Part shown: positions 27,685 to 39,793 of the stretch, in pieces
How positions within the stretch are numbered: position 1 is the stretch's first letter
Layout: each line of letters starts with the position of its first letter
From: Paramecium tetraurelia
Taxonomy: Eukaryota; Ciliophora; Oligohymenophorea; Peniculida; Parameciidae
NCBI RefSeq assembly: GCF_000165425.1
Contig: NW_001799333.1
Location: 62,001 to 126,000, forward strand
DNA length: 64,000 nucleotides
Direction: 5' to 3'
Translations under genes and position numbers: made by a program
Notes under the pieces: generated by a model
The model's input: only the letters and a program-made list of their open reading frames with translations
Told to the model about the DNA's origin: nothing
Databases searched by the model: none

Positions 27685-30600
27685 TCAATCTAATAAATTT
27701 TCCTCGTTAACTATACTCCTAAAGTTTCTATAGAAGGAATCATCAAAAATTAATGTGTGGCGAGGAAACAAATACACACTCTACTTTAAATATAAGAATT
27801 GCTGATAATTATATTTATCGATCTTCGCAAAATAGAAAATAGCCAATACGATCTCAAAGGTCAGATAAAATATGCATAATAACTAAAATAATTGATTATC
27901 TATATTACTTATTAATTTAAGATTAAATTTTACGCTGAATCCACTAAATTGTTATAAAATTACTCTTTCATAATCTCAATTATGTTTGTCAAAATCGTTG
28001 ATCCCTCTAGCTCCAATAGCGTTGAAGTAGGTTGAACAGTAAAATTTAAAGTATCTGATTATTGAACTCGAACAGAATTCAATATGTAAATTAATGATTA
28101 TTAAAATCCAAGAACCAAATTACCTTACATCACTTAAGGGCAAAATGATTCGGTTTACTATTTTAATTCGTCACTCTAAAACTCACATAAATTGCCGGTG
28201 TTTAAAGTTGTGAAAAAGTCAATTAAATATTCATCAAACAAATAATCAGTGCTACTTAAATTTAGATTTTATTATTGATATCTACTAATTGAATTCAAAG
28301 CATTAAAAATAACAGCATAAGTTTAATTCAAATCAGTTGAGTTGAGAAAAGGATATCTCAGTGTTACTCGAAATAATATTTCTTTTTGAGCATAAACAGC
28401 TGGTATATCAACACCCAAATCAGATAATTATTAATAAAATGCTGCTGTTTTTTCATATTTTAAGAAATATATCCTGAAAGTCCAAAATAAATATATGCTA
28501 AATGCTGTAAACAGTAAGAAGTGACCAATACTAAGAGCAAGTCCTAGAATAGGCTTATTATTAGTAAGTTTTGTATTTGATTTTTTTGAGAAGAATTATT
28601 TTTATTTAATGTTGGACTTTTCTAATTAATTATCAACTTAATCGATGTCTATAACAAATGCTTTAATAACATCCATATCTTAAACTACTATTTATTATAA
28701 ATAAGATAATCTTAATTTTTCTTACTCTATAATATTTAAATCAATTGAAGATATGTATTTCATTATAGCACTTTTTTCATTACTATGTCTAATTTATTGT
28801 AAAATTATTAATAAAGTTATCAAAAAGTTCAAACCCCAGAATGGAAAATACCCAAACATCCACTTTTTCTTTTCTTAATTTGATCTCTCAAGTGTAATGT
28901 CTAAAATAACCACATTCAAGTGATCAAACATAGACTTTACAATTTGATAATCCTTATATGTAAAATAATAATATGGATTATCAAAGCCTCCTCCTTGTCC
29001 ATCTAAATGCAATTTGAAATCATATTAATAATTCAAAGTTATTATTATAATTGATCGTTTGCTGATATTATATTCCTGTCCTGTATTATTTGTATTCACA
29101 TATAACATAATTGGCATATATGTAATATTTGAAATCTAATCAATTTCACTCCTTAGAAGTACATCTCCCATGCTCTTTTTCATTTTATCAAAAGACTGCA
29201 TTAAGTAATTTTTGGGAAAAATTTATAACTAGGCAGCATAGGTAGCATTAATCGCCTTCCTAGCCAACATTTCTTTATAGTTAATCTAAGTAAATCTTGA
29301 TACTGAGAAGGACTCTAAAGGTCCTGTTACATCATATCTTACCGAAAGCAATTTAATGTCCTAGATAAAACCCCGGATATTGGATATCAAAGATAGGTTC
29401 TATTTTAATTATAAATACTTACAATTATTATGTAAATTTAAATTAAAACCACAAAGAGAATAAAGTTTATGTTGGCTTTCATTAATTTGGAGGAACTTTT
29501 TAAGGACTTACAAAGGGAATAAATGATTTCGAATTTTTTGTAAAATTTGGATTTTTTAATCATTGTAATTGAAGATCCTGAAGCAAAATCCCTGGTTTCA
29601 TTTTAAAATGTAAACTGTTTTTTAGTTATGAATTCCTCGTTCATAGATTCTTTAGGACTGAATAATTTTTAGTTCATCTTATATTGTTAATGAATAGGAT
29701 TGGTTTGTTCCTATTCAACCATTAAATCAGTAATATAAAGCTTAGACTCCACATGTTATGACTCACTTTAATTTAGTGGATTTCCTTTCTTTATCAAAGA
29801 GATATCGAAAATTTCTTAATAAGGGAAAGCTTTTTCGATATCTTCGTCTATATCCTCTTTCATTCTCTCTAATTTGTGAATCATCAATAAGTCATTCGTT
29901 TGTTACTTTTAGAATATACTAGTATCTAATTTGGAATCTGTGTTTCTATTATTGTTAGATCTAATGTTGTCTAAAGTAATCATATAACACAAGTTTTCAC
30001 CTGTAAACCTTTTCTCAATATTGATATTACTGAAATAGTCTAAGAATCTTTGGCTAGCTTATTTGCCATTGCTACTTAACAGGCGAATATTGTGGTTAAA
30101 GAAATTCTTGACATTTGATTAGATCAATAAATCAAATTCAGGAATGATGTTGAAAATAGTTCCAAGATTTTTGGTTGAAATGAAACTTGTAGAATATTAA
30201 TTATTTCCTAAAATTTAATTACTGATGTTTTCACTGCAATTAATAATATCGAAGGATTAATTTACAACCAAATACGATCTATAATCCATTTATTCATAAA
30301 AAAATATAAGGAATGAAAACGTTTGAGAACTACTTTGATTTAGACCAACCATCATCTCAATCGGCAACATAATTTTATCAAACAACTTAAGAAATGCGAG
30401 GTTCTATTACTGGTAATATTTATTGGTTCCTTCATCAAAAAATTACTCAATAAGTGTTCTGTGTTATCTCTAAACATACTCAGGTATAAAGTCATTAACA
30501 CTAATATCGAGAGAATTCTTCCATTTAGATCCATAAATTGATTAAAATTTCTTCATGGCCTTTTTAGATTGCCTTACAATAATCACATCAAGATCTTTAT

Positions 30601-32151
30601 TGATTTCAGCAACTATATAAGAAGGATTCTATCCAAATAATTTATTATAGACAGAGTCATGAAATAGTTAATATTTCTCATCATTTAATGCTTTGTTTTT
30701 ATTTAAATCAAAAGCTTCTATGTAGTCATTTAAAACTTCTAATAAGTAAAACTTTAAAACATTTTGATTGCTAGAAGCTATATAAATATTTAAATAGATA
30801 CTTGGAAATTTTTGATATCTCTCAGTCAATTCTATTCGAAATTATTATAATTACCTTATTATTTTTATTGGGTAATTTATATCTCCTTGAAATTTATTTG
30901 AATGCTCAATAAAATAGTAGTAAAATTGGCTCTTATCTAATATAGTCTTTTTTAACTTCATCTGTATGTATTGATCGCTGTTTTCATTAATGGAAAACTA
31001 TTTTAAAGAATCTGCAATTAATTTGTTATTTGGATTGGTTAGAATCATTCTTTCCATCATTTGGATAAGTACATCATTCTCAATTTAATATTTTAGAAAG
31101 TCTAATAGGCAATGAGTAGTCAAGGAGAGATTATATGAGTTATATTTGTTTTAATAATTTTCCTTAGAATAGGCCACTCTAAAGATGACTTATTATGCCT
31201 TTACAAATTGTCTTCTCCTAAACAATATCTAAGATAAATCTAGTGTTAGCTGCTCTATCTTTTTAGTTCTTTATTCCAAAAGCATATCTAACTTCATCTC
31301 TATGAGTTATAGGATTTTTTATTTAATATTCATCTCTTTCTTACAAATGCATTCGCATTTTTAGCAATTTTGTTGGTGTTCACAAATTATAAGAGTCATC
31401 TTCAACATGTTCATATTATGATTCCCATCTAAGCTCTCAACATATGAAAAAAGGTACTTCAATCTTCTCAAATCCATAGTTTATAATGATAAGCATTATG
31501 CTTTATGCATTAAATGTAATAAGCATATTAATATGAGAGATAACAATAGCCATAAGTTGTCTTTTATTCTATTCTAGACAATTAAAGATTCTATTGGTAT
31601 TATAATCCCAAAAGATGCAATGATTAGGGATGTTAAAACGCATTTTGTTTTTGCATATATTTTTAATTCTAAAATTTAATAAATATGCAGCGTTTGTATT
31701 GTAATGATCAAAATATTTTGTAATATTAGACCCAATTTCGAGTTAGTTAAGAAAAAAAATATCATTATTTGAAATATTCTTAATGGTTTTATGAAATATT
31801 TTACTTAATTGTTATTTAATGGTAATTATGTTGTCACTCTTAATATCAATCCACTTTAAAATACAATATCAGAAAATATTATGATAAATGCGATCTCCAA
31901 GATCATTATAATCTCCAGAATGATTCCATATATTTCCGTGATATTCATCATACATATTTCTATCAGCCAGCAAAAAAATGTTGATGAAACCAAATAATAA
32001 TAATTACAAATGTAACGGAGAATTACATTAGAGGTGTGCATTTCATGATACTATTGCCTTTTTGACTATATAATTAAGTATATTGTCATGAGTATTATTA
32101 TCTATTGAATGGTAAAGCATATACTGAAAACAATTACTTTTGATTGTTCAT
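27685..32151 (-). CDS. TmcB-like large multi-span membrane protein
   Basis: A 4.5-kb gene of about 1,450 residues. The N-terminal part has several membrane segments, then a Cys/His motif (LIICEHQQNCQKCECICKKE) followed by long helices, as in ciliate proteins usually labelled tiny macrocysts protein B. A middle PAS-like block contains DISVNDFIPEYVQRQHRTLI. The C-terminal half has further spans and a large extracytosolic loop, and the protein ends YRNFRSIVNEENLLD. The start is taken at 32151 through a 23-nt intron (32102-32124) to a hydrophobic segment; ATGs at 32089 and 32041 are in frame alternatives. A 26-nt intron lies near the 3' end. The biochemical role of this family is unknown; PAS-like and membrane parts suggest sensing. 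Confidence 0.75.
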
Positions 32152-32995
32152 TAACTATAAACAAGTATGGCCGCGTTAAAATAAGTAGTGATTAAAGTGT
32201 TGGTTCAAATTATTTTTCTGGGTTATATATATGATAAAAGTTAAAGGAAATTGGTTACACCTAATTTACAATTATGAGGAGGATTTATATAATCTAAGGT
32301 TAAGTAAATTCAAATTTTAAAAACTATGAGAGTAAGAAAATCAATTCCTTGTAATATGGTTCAAATAATTTAAGCATTATGCTAATTTTATATATATATT
32401 TATTTAGATATTATAAATCTAACTTTTATCAAAGTATAACAATTCTCAAGGCTTTACAATTTAAAATCAAGTATATAAATTACATTTAACAATGACGAAT
32501 ATAAATCTTTGTTCAAAATGAAAATTTACCATAATTTATCTTCAATCTATTCATATCAATAAATTAGATTATTCAATATCTACAAAAGTTTTAGATAGAA
32601 AATAAATTATAGTTAATACAGTCACATGATTGTTTTGAAGGCTTATGACAAAATTGGAAAGGATTCTTTTTTATTAAATCAAATAAGTATTTATATATAT
32701 ATTAATAACAAACTTAAAATATGTAAAAATGGAGGCAATTCTCATAATATCAACAAATTTTATAAGAAATTCACATCAATATTTTCTTATGCCTAATTAA
32801 TCCTTCAATATTCTTAACTTTTAATATTTTTTAAGTTTGTTCTGAATTCTTTTGTATAAATTGTTGATAACTTTTTTAACTTAAAATTGTAGAAAAAATT
32901 TCTTAGAATGAAATACTGTTAGAAAGCATTTTTAATAAATAGAAAACTCAGAAAAGAATAAATAAAATATATTGTAATTTCTAGGATGAGGATAT
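32152..32995. other. Long AT-rich gap without a gene
   Basis: About 840 bp of very AT-rich sequence with TATATA tracts and frequent TGA. Nothing coding or structured is supported. Confidence 0.5.
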
Positions 32996-33506: not shown

Positions 33507-34927
33507 ATGAATCAAAAGGAAGGATAATCGATATCATTGCAAAAATTCCATCGCAAAAGTGCTTAATCTACTACAGATGATTCCTAAATGATTCTTCCTG
33601 AATTAAAAGGCAGATGTCTTAAAAGTGCTACAACGAAGCTTCTTAATAATAAATCCTTGTAGACTCCCTTAAAATACTACATAAACGAAAGTTTATAGTA
33701 AAGAGTAAGTGTTATACAATTATTAGAAAAGAAGTGAAAATCATTCTGAATACACCTTAATTGAAACTTACTTAGAAGCTTTATAACGATGTGCTTAAGA
33801 GGAGAAGAAGAAAAAATAAATCCAAACCCTACAAATAAATAGTTTTCCTATTTTACCTGGCTAAGTCATTAGGGAAAGAATAAAAAAATATGCAGAAATT
33901 TAATAAAGAGAAGTAACAAGTATACAGTGATATAATTTAAGAGTACTTTGTAAGAAGAGAATAACCAGCAAAAAAGCCAGTTTCTACCGCTTTAAGTACG
34001 ATTAGTTAAAAGAGCATAGTCAATTAAAGTAGTAAAATAGATGCCACATCAATTTCAATAACATGCGGTTCTAAATTAAAACACAAGGTTAGTTCTAAGA
34101 AATGGGCTATTTTCAAAAGGAATAAAGGGGAAACCAAGTTTTAAAAAATATATGCATTCTAAGATCAATAAAAAAGTGAAGTGGCATCGATTACTAAAGT
34201 GATGACTTGCTACACAACTTTAAAATTCTTGGAAGAAAAGAGAATTGATATGGAAGCAATAAGAATAAAAATCCCTGGACATGCAGAATGCATAGATGGT
34301 ACTAGTGCCTTTTTAAATGCAGGAGGAATAATGAATATCAAGTAGTTATTATTTGCAATGATGTTACCATCAGGGAATGACGCAGCATTAGTATTAAGTT
34401 ATGCAATCGCATTTTTAAAAACTTGTGATAATATTCAAAGGTATTTTAATGGACATTTTATTGATTGCGAATTGGAAATAGAAAAAAATAAGTTTCAATT
34501 AAGAACTTAATTTCTATAGATGATGAATAATCATGCTGAGAATTTGAAAATGGATAAAACTAACTATAATTCAGTTCATGGATTAAATGATGCTCTTAAT
34601 GTCTCATGTGCATTAGATATTTTTAAATTAGTCGAAGATTGCATTAAAATCAAAGAGTTTATGGAAATTGTCAATACAAGATGTTTTAAAACTTATGCAA
34701 TGACTGAATAAGGAAAATAAGGAACTTATTATAAATGGAAAAACACAAATAAGCTCTTGAAAAAAGAAGGATGGCAAGGCATTAAAACAGGAATTACTTC
34801 AAATGCTGGTCCGTGTTTTAGTGGATATTATAAAACAGATGATTTTGATGCAATTGTGATAGTCTTACAAAGTTCAAATATGCTTTAAAGATTTAAAGAT
34901 GCTGAAATTCTAATAAAGTTATTGTGA
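33507..34927 (+). CDS. D-Ala-D-Ala carboxypeptidase-like serine hydrolase (peptidase S11 type)
   Basis: A 458-residue protein with two 22-nt introns (33705-33726, 33920-33941); frame closes exactly. The first 200 residues are Ser/Lys/Gln-rich and probably cytosolic. The C-terminal 250 residues carry all three active-site motifs of penicillin-recognising DD-carboxypeptidases: SxxK as S213-I-T-K216 (VASITKVMTCY), SxN as S274-G-N276 (MMLPSGNDAALVL), and KTG at 412-414 (QGIKTGITSNAGPC). In bacteria these enzymes trim peptidoglycan; ciliates have no such wall, so substrate here is unknown. Introns and codon use are ciliate, so it is a resident gene and not contamination. No signal peptide is visible. 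Confidence 0.88.
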
Positions 34928-34938
34928 AACATTTTAAT

Positions 34939-35815
34939 TCAAAATTTTGGATGTGGAATCCTTACATTAACCCCAATCTTTACAAAATCATTTTTGTACA
35001 TAGCTAATTTAGCTTCTCTCATTCCTTTACCAAAACTGAAGGCTGGTTTATTTGGTTTATTAGATACCACTTGAGCTCCAACACTTTCTCTAAAATCATA
35101 GAATACATTTATACTGCACATAATAAGTCTAATTTTTATCAATATTCTTTTATTGTGGTATTTTTGGAGCTTTAGTAAATGAGTATTTTGGTGGTTCTTG
35201 CAATTCTGTTGAGAAATCCTTTTTTGGTTTGTAACTTCCAGGTCCAAGTGTAGTAGGAGTTGAAAATGAAACAGAATGAGTTCTTCTATTACCCATAGTA
35301 TATTTTGGGCCTTGAGCTCTTTCTGTTAAATCATAATTGGGACCTGGAGTCTTCGTAAGTTCTTTCTATAAGAATCGTTGTTCCTATCCAAATCTGACTG
35401 TTCCTGCAGACCATTTTCTAAGATGATCTGCTTTTTAAGGTTCAAACTTAAATTATCAATTAAAATACATCGATGTCTTTTCTTTTGTAATGATCATAAT
35501 GGTTTGTGTTGAGGCTCTATCTCGTTGATGTGCCCAATCTTGCACTTGGAGCTCTGGCAGCTTATTAAGAGAAGTTTTTGATTGGATTATAGATTGGGCC
35601 TGGACTATGTTTGCCTTTTTCCATTAATTTGTTTTCTTTGTATACTTGTGATGCCTAATATCTTGTCGAAGTTCCGAAACCAAAGGCAGGAACATTTGGA
35701 ACAGTTGACAATAACTCTAAATTCAAATTACGATTATACTCTTTCCAAATGAAGAATTTCTATTGTGATTTTCAAACTCAATCAAGTCATTGGGACTATG
35801 TGATGCTTTGCTCAT
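34939..35815 (-). CDS. STPGR/SHIPPO-repeat (ODF3-like) ciliary protein
   Basis: A 268-residue protein with introns at about 35724-35746, 35455-35476 and 35090-35114; the total closes the frame. It carries repeated Pro-Gly-x-Tyr motifs of the SHIPPO/STPGR type: HSPGPIYNP, KTPGPNYDLTE and TLGPGSYKPKK, with intervening FxFG-type segments (PAFGFGTS, PAFSFGKGMREA). It ends RIPHPKF. Proteins of this family (ODF3, CIMAP) line the inside or outside of axonemal microtubules. Its 3' end is 11 bp from the convergent hydrolase gene. Confidence 0.85.
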
Positions 35816-37858: not shown

Positions 37859-39793
37859 TCAAACTTTTTTAGGGATCAACTTATGAGAATATCTAGGCTT
37901 TGTAAATTAACTATAAAGCACGCATTAATTAGTCAAAATGGAGTATCTACATAAATGTATATAAATGACATACCTCCAAATATTTGAACTAGGAATATTT
38001 TCTTAAGTCTTTCCTCCAACTAAATATATAAATTGATAGTCATCACTAACGATTGCATCGGATTTAACAGTAGGACATATTAATTCTCCCATTTAATAAA
38101 ATTATTAATCGGTTTCATCGTATTTCTCAATTTATTTGATATATTTTTTGCCAGACCTTCCTCCGAAAATCCAAATGCCATCTGGAAGTGTCAAAGAAAT
38201 ATGGCTTCTTCTAGGATAATTAGGAGATTTGATTCTTTTCCATAGATTAGTTGCCATATCATATTTGAAACAACCTTACTCGTCAAACAAATACATAGAG
38301 TTTGGCTCATTACCTTGTACCAAGGTATGATTATAACACTTAATTGGAATAGATTACAAATTTTTAGTCTAATATGTATCTAAATTGATGAGTTGAAATA
38401 TGTCTTAGATTCCTTAATCTGTTTTGCCTCCTGAAATATATAGTTTATTTCCTATTTATTTTGATGCCAACCCACTAACCCCTTTAGTAAGTATAAGTTA
38501 AGAGATTTTAGATTATTTTAGATTTGGATCGTATGACTCACATAAGGCAGTTCTAATTCCTTCCTATTTCCCTCCTATCAATAGAATTTGATTTCCATGA
38601 TAGGCAATTTAAAATCCATAACGATTTGAGACCAAGAAGTCATGCTAAGTAGATTGCTTTGATTATATGTCAACTAATTCAATAAGATTTTATCTTTGAC
38701 CCTTCAGCAATCCCCCTATAATATAAAATTATGTTTGATTTTAGATTGGAATCTCCATCTATGAAATGGAATGTTCACTTAAGGATTACTTGTTACTAAA
38801 GAAATCATTGATAATTGATTATTCGGGAGAGGCTTTGTCTAAAATAGAACTTAAATCCGTTGGGATATCCAGAGTTATTTATTTGACTTCTGTTTTTCTC
38901 ATTTGCTACTTTGATGATTGCAAACTAAAATGAGGAGAACTATGTTAAGTAAACCCTTTTTTAGAGAATGGACTTGCTCTTGTGGTGTTAGGTTATTAGA
39001 ATAGTTTGGATGATACACGTTTGATTCTATAATCGGAGTCTCTTTCCAAAGTACACAAGATGTTAGAGATTGATTTAACGATATCGGAGGCATTTCTAAT
39101 TTACAATTGCTGATATTGAATTTTAGGGGCTTGGGATAAATTCTCATATTCGTTTTCAAGTTCTTTGATTGTCTTACAATTGATAGTGTAATATTCTCGA
39201 AACTTTTTTAACTGCTCATATCCAGAGGTATTTTATTAGTTGACGATGTTCTTTTCTAATTAGATTCCTCTTCCCTTATATTCATCAATGACACACTTTT
39301 ATAATAATTATTAAAGGGTACTTTCGAATCCTGTAAAGTCTATTAATGCTTCATTTTATGAACTTCAACTTATTCAATGAGTTCTTAAAATTTCATTTAA
39401 ACAATTTCAATAATTTAGGAGCACACTGAATTCAACGATTAAATTTAGACTTAAGACATTTTATGTATCTGAGTATTTTCTTTTTGAATTTGATCATCAA
39501 GATTATTGTAGTTTTTAATGATTTTTTGAACTTTTTACAATTGCTATTTATTTTACAAACTTATGTTATTCAAAGCCTAACTTCTAGAAATGATCATACT
39601 TTTTCAATTGAAATGATGTTTTATACTTTCAAGCTACATTTGATCAAACATTCCTAGCAGAGCAATTATTAAGTAGTTGTACAATAATCTAACTATTAAA
39701 CAAAAATAGTTTACTTGTGTAGATAAGCAAATGTTTAGGACAATTAAATTGATCGATTTCATCGCCAGAAAAGCATTCTTCCTCTGTGTCCAT
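37859..39793 (-). CDS. B-box / coiled-coil / Kelch-repeat protein
   Basis: A protein of about 600 residues. The N-terminus has a B-box-like zinc motif (FNCPKHLLIYTNYCTTTQQL then LCQECLIKCS) after a 26-nt intron is removed near 39700. A coiled coil follows (VQKIIKNYNNLDDQIQKENT), then a linker, then Kelch blades with the GG signature and spaced Tyr/Trp (IWIFGGRSGKKY, FIYLVGGKTQENIPSSNIWR). A 27-nt intron near 37950 precedes the last blade, which ends SHKLIPKKV. The layout resembles TRIM-like or Kelch adaptor proteins, but there is no RING. Not all introns were resolved. Confidence 0.75.

Follow-up and report, generated by a model that had tools for sequence, protein, structure and literature searches.

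The gene described here lies on the forward strand of a 64,000-nucleotide (nt) stretch of the Paramecium tetraurelia genome (contig NW_001799333.1, positions 62,001 to 126,000), the whole of which is called the window. It encodes a protein of the S11 peptidase family, the penicillin-recognising DD-carboxypeptidases that are textbook enzymes of the bacterial wall, and it is one of at least 20 such genes in the genome searched (69 Mb on 231 contigs, in which the window is C171:62001-126000). Its features are as follows.

33507..34927, forward strand: whole S11 gene, ATG to TGA, 458 amino acids in the ciliate code
33507..33704, forward strand: exon 1 (gene model)
33705..33726, forward strand: intron 1, 22 nt, GT..AG; the paralogue on contig C91 has a 22-nt intron too
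33727..33919, forward strand: exon 2, its frame backed by the ratio of nonsynonymous to synonymous change (dN/dS)
33920..33941, forward strand: intron 2, 22 nt, GT..AG; again a 22-nt intron in the C91 paralogue
33942..34927, forward strand: exon 3, with the entire catalytic domain inside (gene model and domain match)
33507..34084, forward strand: Lys/Ser/Gln-rich N-terminal extension, roughly residues 1-178, introns counted in; its only other occurrences are at three paralogous places
34085..34924, forward strand: catalytic S11 domain, about residues 179-458 (profile match, predicted fold)
34187..34198, forward strand: SITK (SxxK), with Ser213, the nucleophile by family, and Lys216 (alignment)
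34370..34378, forward strand: SGN (SxN), Ser274 and Asn276 (alignment)
34784..34792, forward strand: KTG, Lys412-Gly414 (alignment)
34889..34891, forward strand: Arg447, aligned with Arg248 of Streptomyces K15 (alignment)
34925-34927, forward strand: TGA stop codon of the S11 gene

An S11 active site in a ciliate gene

The protein matches the S11 profile PF00768 with 113.3 bits (E 1.7e-32; cut-off 27.6). Its predicted S11 catalytic fold and superposition are intact, so that at the level of the fold the structure prediction shows no loss of active-site geometry. Bacterial relatives were sampled by scanning 84,980 species genomes for a pattern, which yielded at least 593 stretches; the best 80 of the 506 confirmed relatives were retained, a sample that leans towards the query, and 79 of them were compared after L074, in which the SxxK pattern was not found, had been dropped. 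An initial annotation made from the sequence alone had proposed a bacterial-type DD-carboxypeptidase fold with SITK, SGN and KTG in order at normal spacing, and both proposals hold: the motifs are intact, with 61 residues from SxxK to SxN and 138 from SxN to KTG, inside the ranges of the 79 relatives (54-61, with 60 in 48 of them, and 103-164, respectively).

Motif conservation was counted over aligned rows, 20 from the ciliate, 79 from the bacterial relatives and 3 from E. coli, the aberrant loci L021 and L028 included; two further alignments hold nine of the 20 ciliate proteins (A1) and the window exon with 62 of the 80 bacterial loci (A2). Among the 20 ciliate rows the SxxK motif keeps its Ser in 18 and its Lys in 19, SGN its Ser in 19 and its Asn in all, and KTG its Lys and Thr in 19 each and its Gly in all. 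The position of Arg447, whose role, like that of K15 Arg248, we take to be that of holding the substrate carboxylate, is Arg in 19 of the 20 ciliate rows and in 62 of the 79 bacterial ones (10 gaps, 7 other residues). E. coli DacA and DacC likewise have Arg in this column, the endopeptidase PbpG has His, and Arg447 accordingly suits a carboxypeptidase more than it does an endopeptidase. The chain ends 11 residues past Arg447, right after the last helix of the catalytic domain; the beta-rich C-terminal domain and the membrane anchor of the PBP5 type are not present in it.

The catalytic fold, the three motifs and the arginine of K15 position 248 are shared with the Streptomyces K15 DD-transpeptidase, B. 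subtilis DacB and E. coli PBP5 and PBP6 (DacA and DacC). K15 also ends after its single S11 domain, although it has SGC (C98) where the window protein has SGN. Unlike these bacterial penicillin-binding proteins (PBPs) of the S11 family, the window protein has no leader, a long N-terminal extension, Ile after KTG and no PBP5-type C-terminal domain, and it resides in a host without a detectable set of peptidoglycan synthesis genes.

The initial annotation had also considered a LACTB-like enzyme. LACTB and the eukaryotic S12 proteins share the wider fold class and the eukaryotic setting, and the S12 family has a Tyr motif where S11 has SGN. Membership is ruled out by a PF00144 score of 11.3 bits, below the cut-off of 27; moreover, the best 50 rows of each structural search contain entries of PBP or S11 type and a designed hydrolase. 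Two papers, in the text excerpted, present LACTB as a mitochondrial protein that forms filaments and is a relative of PBPs (PMC9815587, PMC9139886). Across nine family members tested, PF00144 matched in one (E 1.4e-5) and PF13354 in five (best 5.7e-8), always alongside PF00768. All NCBIfam matches fell far under their cut-offs, the best being to the staphylococcal PBP4 model. S12-type PF00144 matches occur in the genome at three separate places (C228:81803-82405, C91:53014-53475 and C210:345332-346106).

The gene model is bounded by an in-frame TGA that ends 30 nt upstream of the start at 33507, which is the first possible Met in frame, with zero ATG between them. The first choice of a codon-usage gene finder, a model with one 29-nt intron and 463 amino acids, was set aside: the model with two 22-nt introns was kept because the C91 copy independently gives the same pair, and because dN/dS of exon 2 against that copy favours its frame (0.06, versus 1.5 and 2.3 in the other two). 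Over residues 1-130, encoded by exons 1 and 2, dN/dS is 0.09. Most introns in the gene models of the family measure 19-31 nt, and Paramecium introns are given as about 25 bp in the part of the source consulted (PMC5014332). Glutamine is encoded by 20 in-frame TAA and 4 TAG codons, and the eleven long TGA-free frames of the window contain 308 TAA and 100 TAG in 7,086 codons; a tRNA scan gave no match. These codons and the GT..AG introns confirm the earlier view that the gene is resident. Contamination of the assembly or DNA of a bacterial symbiont, for which the bacterial type of the domain and nothing else speaks, is practically eliminated by the two 22-nt introns, the 24 TAA/TAG codons read as Gln, an exon GC content (0.27-0.31) inside the window range and the collinear duplicated block described below.

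Duplication, constraint and divergent N-termini

About 26-40 kb of the window is collinear, in reversed order, with C91 474.8-486.8 kb and forms with it a duplicated block. The P. tetraurelia genome owes its shape to three or more genome duplications, according to the section of the source available (PMC3091696). The window gene and its C91 copy differ by a synonymous divergence (dS) of 0.70, at which dN/dS is 0.071 over the whole length and 0.043 within the domain; this constraint shows that the S11 gene is not due to chance and, with the profile match, that the gene at 33507..34927 is real. Seven other close pairs (L027/L028 minus its broken stretch, L009/L010, L012/L014, L017/L018, L020/L024, L023/L026 and L009/L011) have dN/dS of 0.04-0.17, and L018/L019 has 0.12. 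The S11 pairs tested are under strong purifying selection.

The genome search with PF00768 gave 43 exon-level matches, which were grouped into at least 20 loci (L009-L028); locus counts from profile searches are lower bounds. The gene had been introduced as a bacterial-style gene embedded in a ciliate genome. It does not stand alone: the paralogues form one clade, and together with the dS of 0.70 to the nearest copy they rule out a lone recent transfer. Several members are deeply diverged, and their N-termini differ. What has been found is more aptly called an expanded S11 family, apparently intracellular for the most part, than a lone bacterial gene embedded in the genome.

Two members stand apart. 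L021 (C207, about 104707-105504) has altered motifs (CLTK, GGN and QGI) in an open frame and is possibly a pseudoenzyme, or an enzyme in which Cys replaces the nucleophile. L028 (C11, about 283341-284849) carries a one-base frame shift close to SITK, while the remainder is constrained (dN/dS 0.04 to L027); it may be either a recent pseudogene or an assembly error.

The Ser/Lys/Gln-rich N-terminal extension, first estimated at 200 residues, spans about 178. A search of the genome that admitted E values up to 1 found it only in the window gene and on C91, C11 and C64. Over alignable residues it shares 84.5% identity with the C91 copy and 44.5% with L027, and dN/dS of the N-terminal 168 residues against the C91 copy is 0.13. 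As judged from these comparisons, the extension is a conserved part of a four-gene subfamily and no junk.

Export signals were assessed through the most hydrophobic 15-residue stretch before SxxK. This leader proxy is 0.83 in the window protein, versus 1.35-3.53 in the open reading frames (ORFs) of the 80 bacterial relatives, and it reaches at least 1.6 in 77 of the 80, or in 72 when residues beyond the first 85 of the longest ORF are disregarded. With the start bounded by the upstream TGA, this agrees with the signal peptide having been reported absent. By the same proxy 17 of the 20 ciliate models, the window gene and 16 more, stay at or below 1.25, in a set of models of which only part is anchored by paralogues and some have 5' ends that are too long (L010, L019).

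Three neighbouring features were recorded. A Kelch-repeat gene at 37862-39364 (reverse strand) shares 91% identity, over 453 residues, with the copy that the C91 block holds. An open frame of 1013 amino acids at 29390-32428 (reverse strand) has zero Pfam match at E 0.01 and is conserved in the duplicate block. Open frames at 34939-35771 (reverse strand) face the S11 gene tail to tail at a distance of about 11 nt and contain sperm-tail PG-rich (SHIPPO) repeats, one above the cut-off and one below; we take this repeat to be known from ciliary proteins.

The ciliate clade and its bacterial neighbours

Two trees were built. The quick tree has 102 rows (79 of the best 80 bacterial relatives, of which 33 are Planctomycetota, with 20 ciliate and 3 E. 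coli rows). The careful tree has 77, after removal of 16 near duplicates, the frame-broken L028 and eight long branches, which include L021, E. coli PbpG and the two rows from Pseudomonadota that fell in the planctomycete-side clade. All 20 ciliate rows form one clade in the quick tree (support 90), and the adjacent bacterial clade includes two Pseudomonadota. In the careful tree the 13 ciliate rows again form one clade (100/97), sister to a clade of Planctomycetota and Verrucomicrobiota plus one further bacterium (99/96). In an approximately unbiased (AU) test, whose groups were named after tree inspection, a grouping of the planctomycete side with five of the 13 ciliate rows, one of them the window gene, was rejected (p-AU 0.0105).

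Draws from three phyla, which depend less on the pattern scan, were searched with the ciliate profile. Its scores are 200 bits or more in 5 of 149 Planctomycetota genomes (any match in 15), in none of 149 Bacillota (any match in 143, best 175.7) and in none of 150 Pseudomonadota (any match in 147, best 184.5, in the seed genome). Planctomycete and verrucomicrobial S11 proteins have the top profile scores among the genomes searched (Planctomycetes bacterium K23_9 L029, 246 bits; Singulisphaera acidiphila L060, 224), and, besides being the sister clade, nearly match the window protein in SxxK-to-SxN spacing. They differ from it in the hydrophobic stretch before SxxK and in the more than 400 residues that lie ahead of SxxK in 24 of the 33 planctomycete ORFs. 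At L030, L031, L032, L041 and other planctomycete loci the S11 domain follows more than 400 residues, and several such regions hold KTG-like motifs; judging by these motifs, the long ORFs are possibly fusions of two serine beta-lactamase-fold domains. Viral contigs contain two weak S11 relatives (L109, L110).

These trees and scores point to a likely bacterial source near the planctomycete-type subfamily, which is patchy (the five of 149 genomes above). From the window gene to the other subfamilies the path in the careful tree exceeds two changes per column, which implies that the acquisition is old. With one ciliate clade beside a bacterial one, the old transfer suggested at the outset is plausible, and the at least 20 paralogues would stem from one bacterial gene.

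A predicted cytosolic carboxypeptidase and its rivals

Ciliates had been said to have no peptidoglycan, and the genome agrees: PF00905 and PF00842 have no match in it at E 0.001, while the positive controls match in 10 and 8 of 14. PF02016 (S66) and PF01510 (Amidase_2) are likewise without a match at this threshold (controls 6 of 14 each). For PF07478 two weak matches pass the cut-off; these are probably other ATP-grasp proteins, because the profile matches all 14 controls, archaea included.

The explanation that we regard as fairly probable is that the window gene encodes a resident, intact S11 enzyme, one of at least 20, of bacterial descent, which acts as a cytosolic acyl-serine carboxypeptidase. 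The acquisition of a bacterial S11 gene would predate the last genome duplication by a long time, and the product of the gene would then have been freed from secretion; the missing leader would place the enzyme in the cytosol, where it would most likely be active. The motifs suggest an acyl-enzyme mechanism, in which Ser213, with Lys216 serving as base, would attack the last peptide bond, while SGN and KTG would hold the substrate and Arg447 would grip its free C-terminal carboxylate. One residue would be released, in the chemistry of the family D-Ala or the achiral Gly, and water would free the acyl-enzyme. As substrates we propose D-Ala-ended stem peptides (muropeptides) from digested food bacteria, which would reach the cytosol and be trimmed or inactivated there; this is a guess, somewhat doubtful in itself, yet it names the most likely substrate.

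Several points weigh against this explanation. The ciliate paralogues are sister to the planctomycete clade in the careful tree, not nested inside it, and the quick tree leaves E. coli PbpG, a very long branch, unplaced beside both clades. A grouping of ciliates with Actinomycetota survives the AU test (p-AU 0.062), and the sister relationship is drawn from one domain at about 30% identity and with skewed composition. Acquisition from bacteria is itself something we infer from a sampling of bacteria and ciliates. The residue after KTG is Ile in 10 of the 20 ciliate rows, as against Thr in 45 and Phe in 21 of the 79 bacterial ones, and specificity may accordingly differ from that of the bacterial relatives. 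The leader proxy is crude and other than SignalP, and bacterial ORF starts were set at the first possible codon. A hydrophobic start is seen in three of the ciliate models (L010 1.93, L019 3.19 and L025 1.36), in L010 and L019 within 5' parts that close paralogues do not share. Finally, the S11 family may not be universal in ciliates: serine peptidases of Entodinium caudatum are annotated only as S01A and S01B in the excerpt consulted (PMC6925433).

The main rival is a host substrate apart from peptidoglycan, on which the enzymes would act as amidases, esterases or carboxypeptidases of host peptides, with the varied N-termini setting their location. The at least 20 paralogues, several of them deeply diverged and with differing N-termini, the conserved subfamily-specific extension, the lack of PF00905 and PF00842 matches and the changed residue after KTG all favour it. 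We nonetheless hold it to be rather unlikely, since SxxK, SGN, KTG and the carboxylate Arg are near-invariant, beyond what a new substrate might leave, and none of the results indicates such a substrate.

On the question of descent, a eukaryotic S11 family inherited vertically from a eukaryotic or alveolate ancestor and kept in ciliates would suit the great age seen in the paralogue divergence, and the trees sampled bacteria and the ciliate family, with no other eukaryotes. This origin appears improbable: plant-lineage S11 genes are linked to plastid peptidoglycan, we know of no S11 family in animals and fungi, and of the 35 PDB sequences that the profile matches, not one has a name recognisable as eukaryotic, a weak absence that concerns names only.

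Slimmer still is the chance that the protein gets into the food vacuole along some unconventional route and takes part in dismantling the peptidoglycan of prey; digestion of prey walls was one of the roles that the initial annotation had named as possible. The enzyme family does work on stem peptides in bacteria, and ciliates that feed on bacteria digest peptidoglycan; for E. caudatum, GH24 and GH25 lysozyme transcripts are reported in the same paper (PMC6925433). It is disfavoured because the window gene and 16 more of the 20 models are without a hydrophobic leader; the genome has no Amidase_2 or S66 match, and a DD-carboxypeptidase takes off the last D-Ala only and leaves the wall closed.

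DD-peptidases accept Gly, and the cytosolic S11 family could be the missing tubulin deglycylase, a carboxypeptidase that would favour a D- or achiral residue at the C-terminus, hold on to the free carboxylate and clip glycines one at a time from the polyglycine side chains of axonemal tubulin. The idea draws on chemistry, cell compartment, family expansion and an unfilled role, none of the results points to tubulin, and we consider it very improbable. The deglycylase had not been identified as of a 2017 review, in the portion consulted (PMC5666887).

Among the matches listed in a literature search on S11 and penicillin-binding enzymes in ciliates or protists, no paper concerned a ciliate S11 enzyme, most subscription papers lying outside the coverage of the search; the genes are presumably already labelled Peptidase_S11 in databases. 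Under the proposed cytosolic carboxypeptidase of bacterial descent, the likely case is that the export signal was lost on the move from bacteria to a eukaryote and that subfamily-specific N-termini were gained afterwards. A family of at least 20 genes whose active sites are near-invariant, with strong purifying selection on the pairs tested, in a genome with no detectable peptidoglycan synthesis set, suggests that the chemistry of a bacterial wall enzyme has been given another job. This raises the questions of which D-Ala- or Gly-ended substrate is trimmed in the ciliate cytosol, and of whether beta-lactams hit a eukaryotic target.
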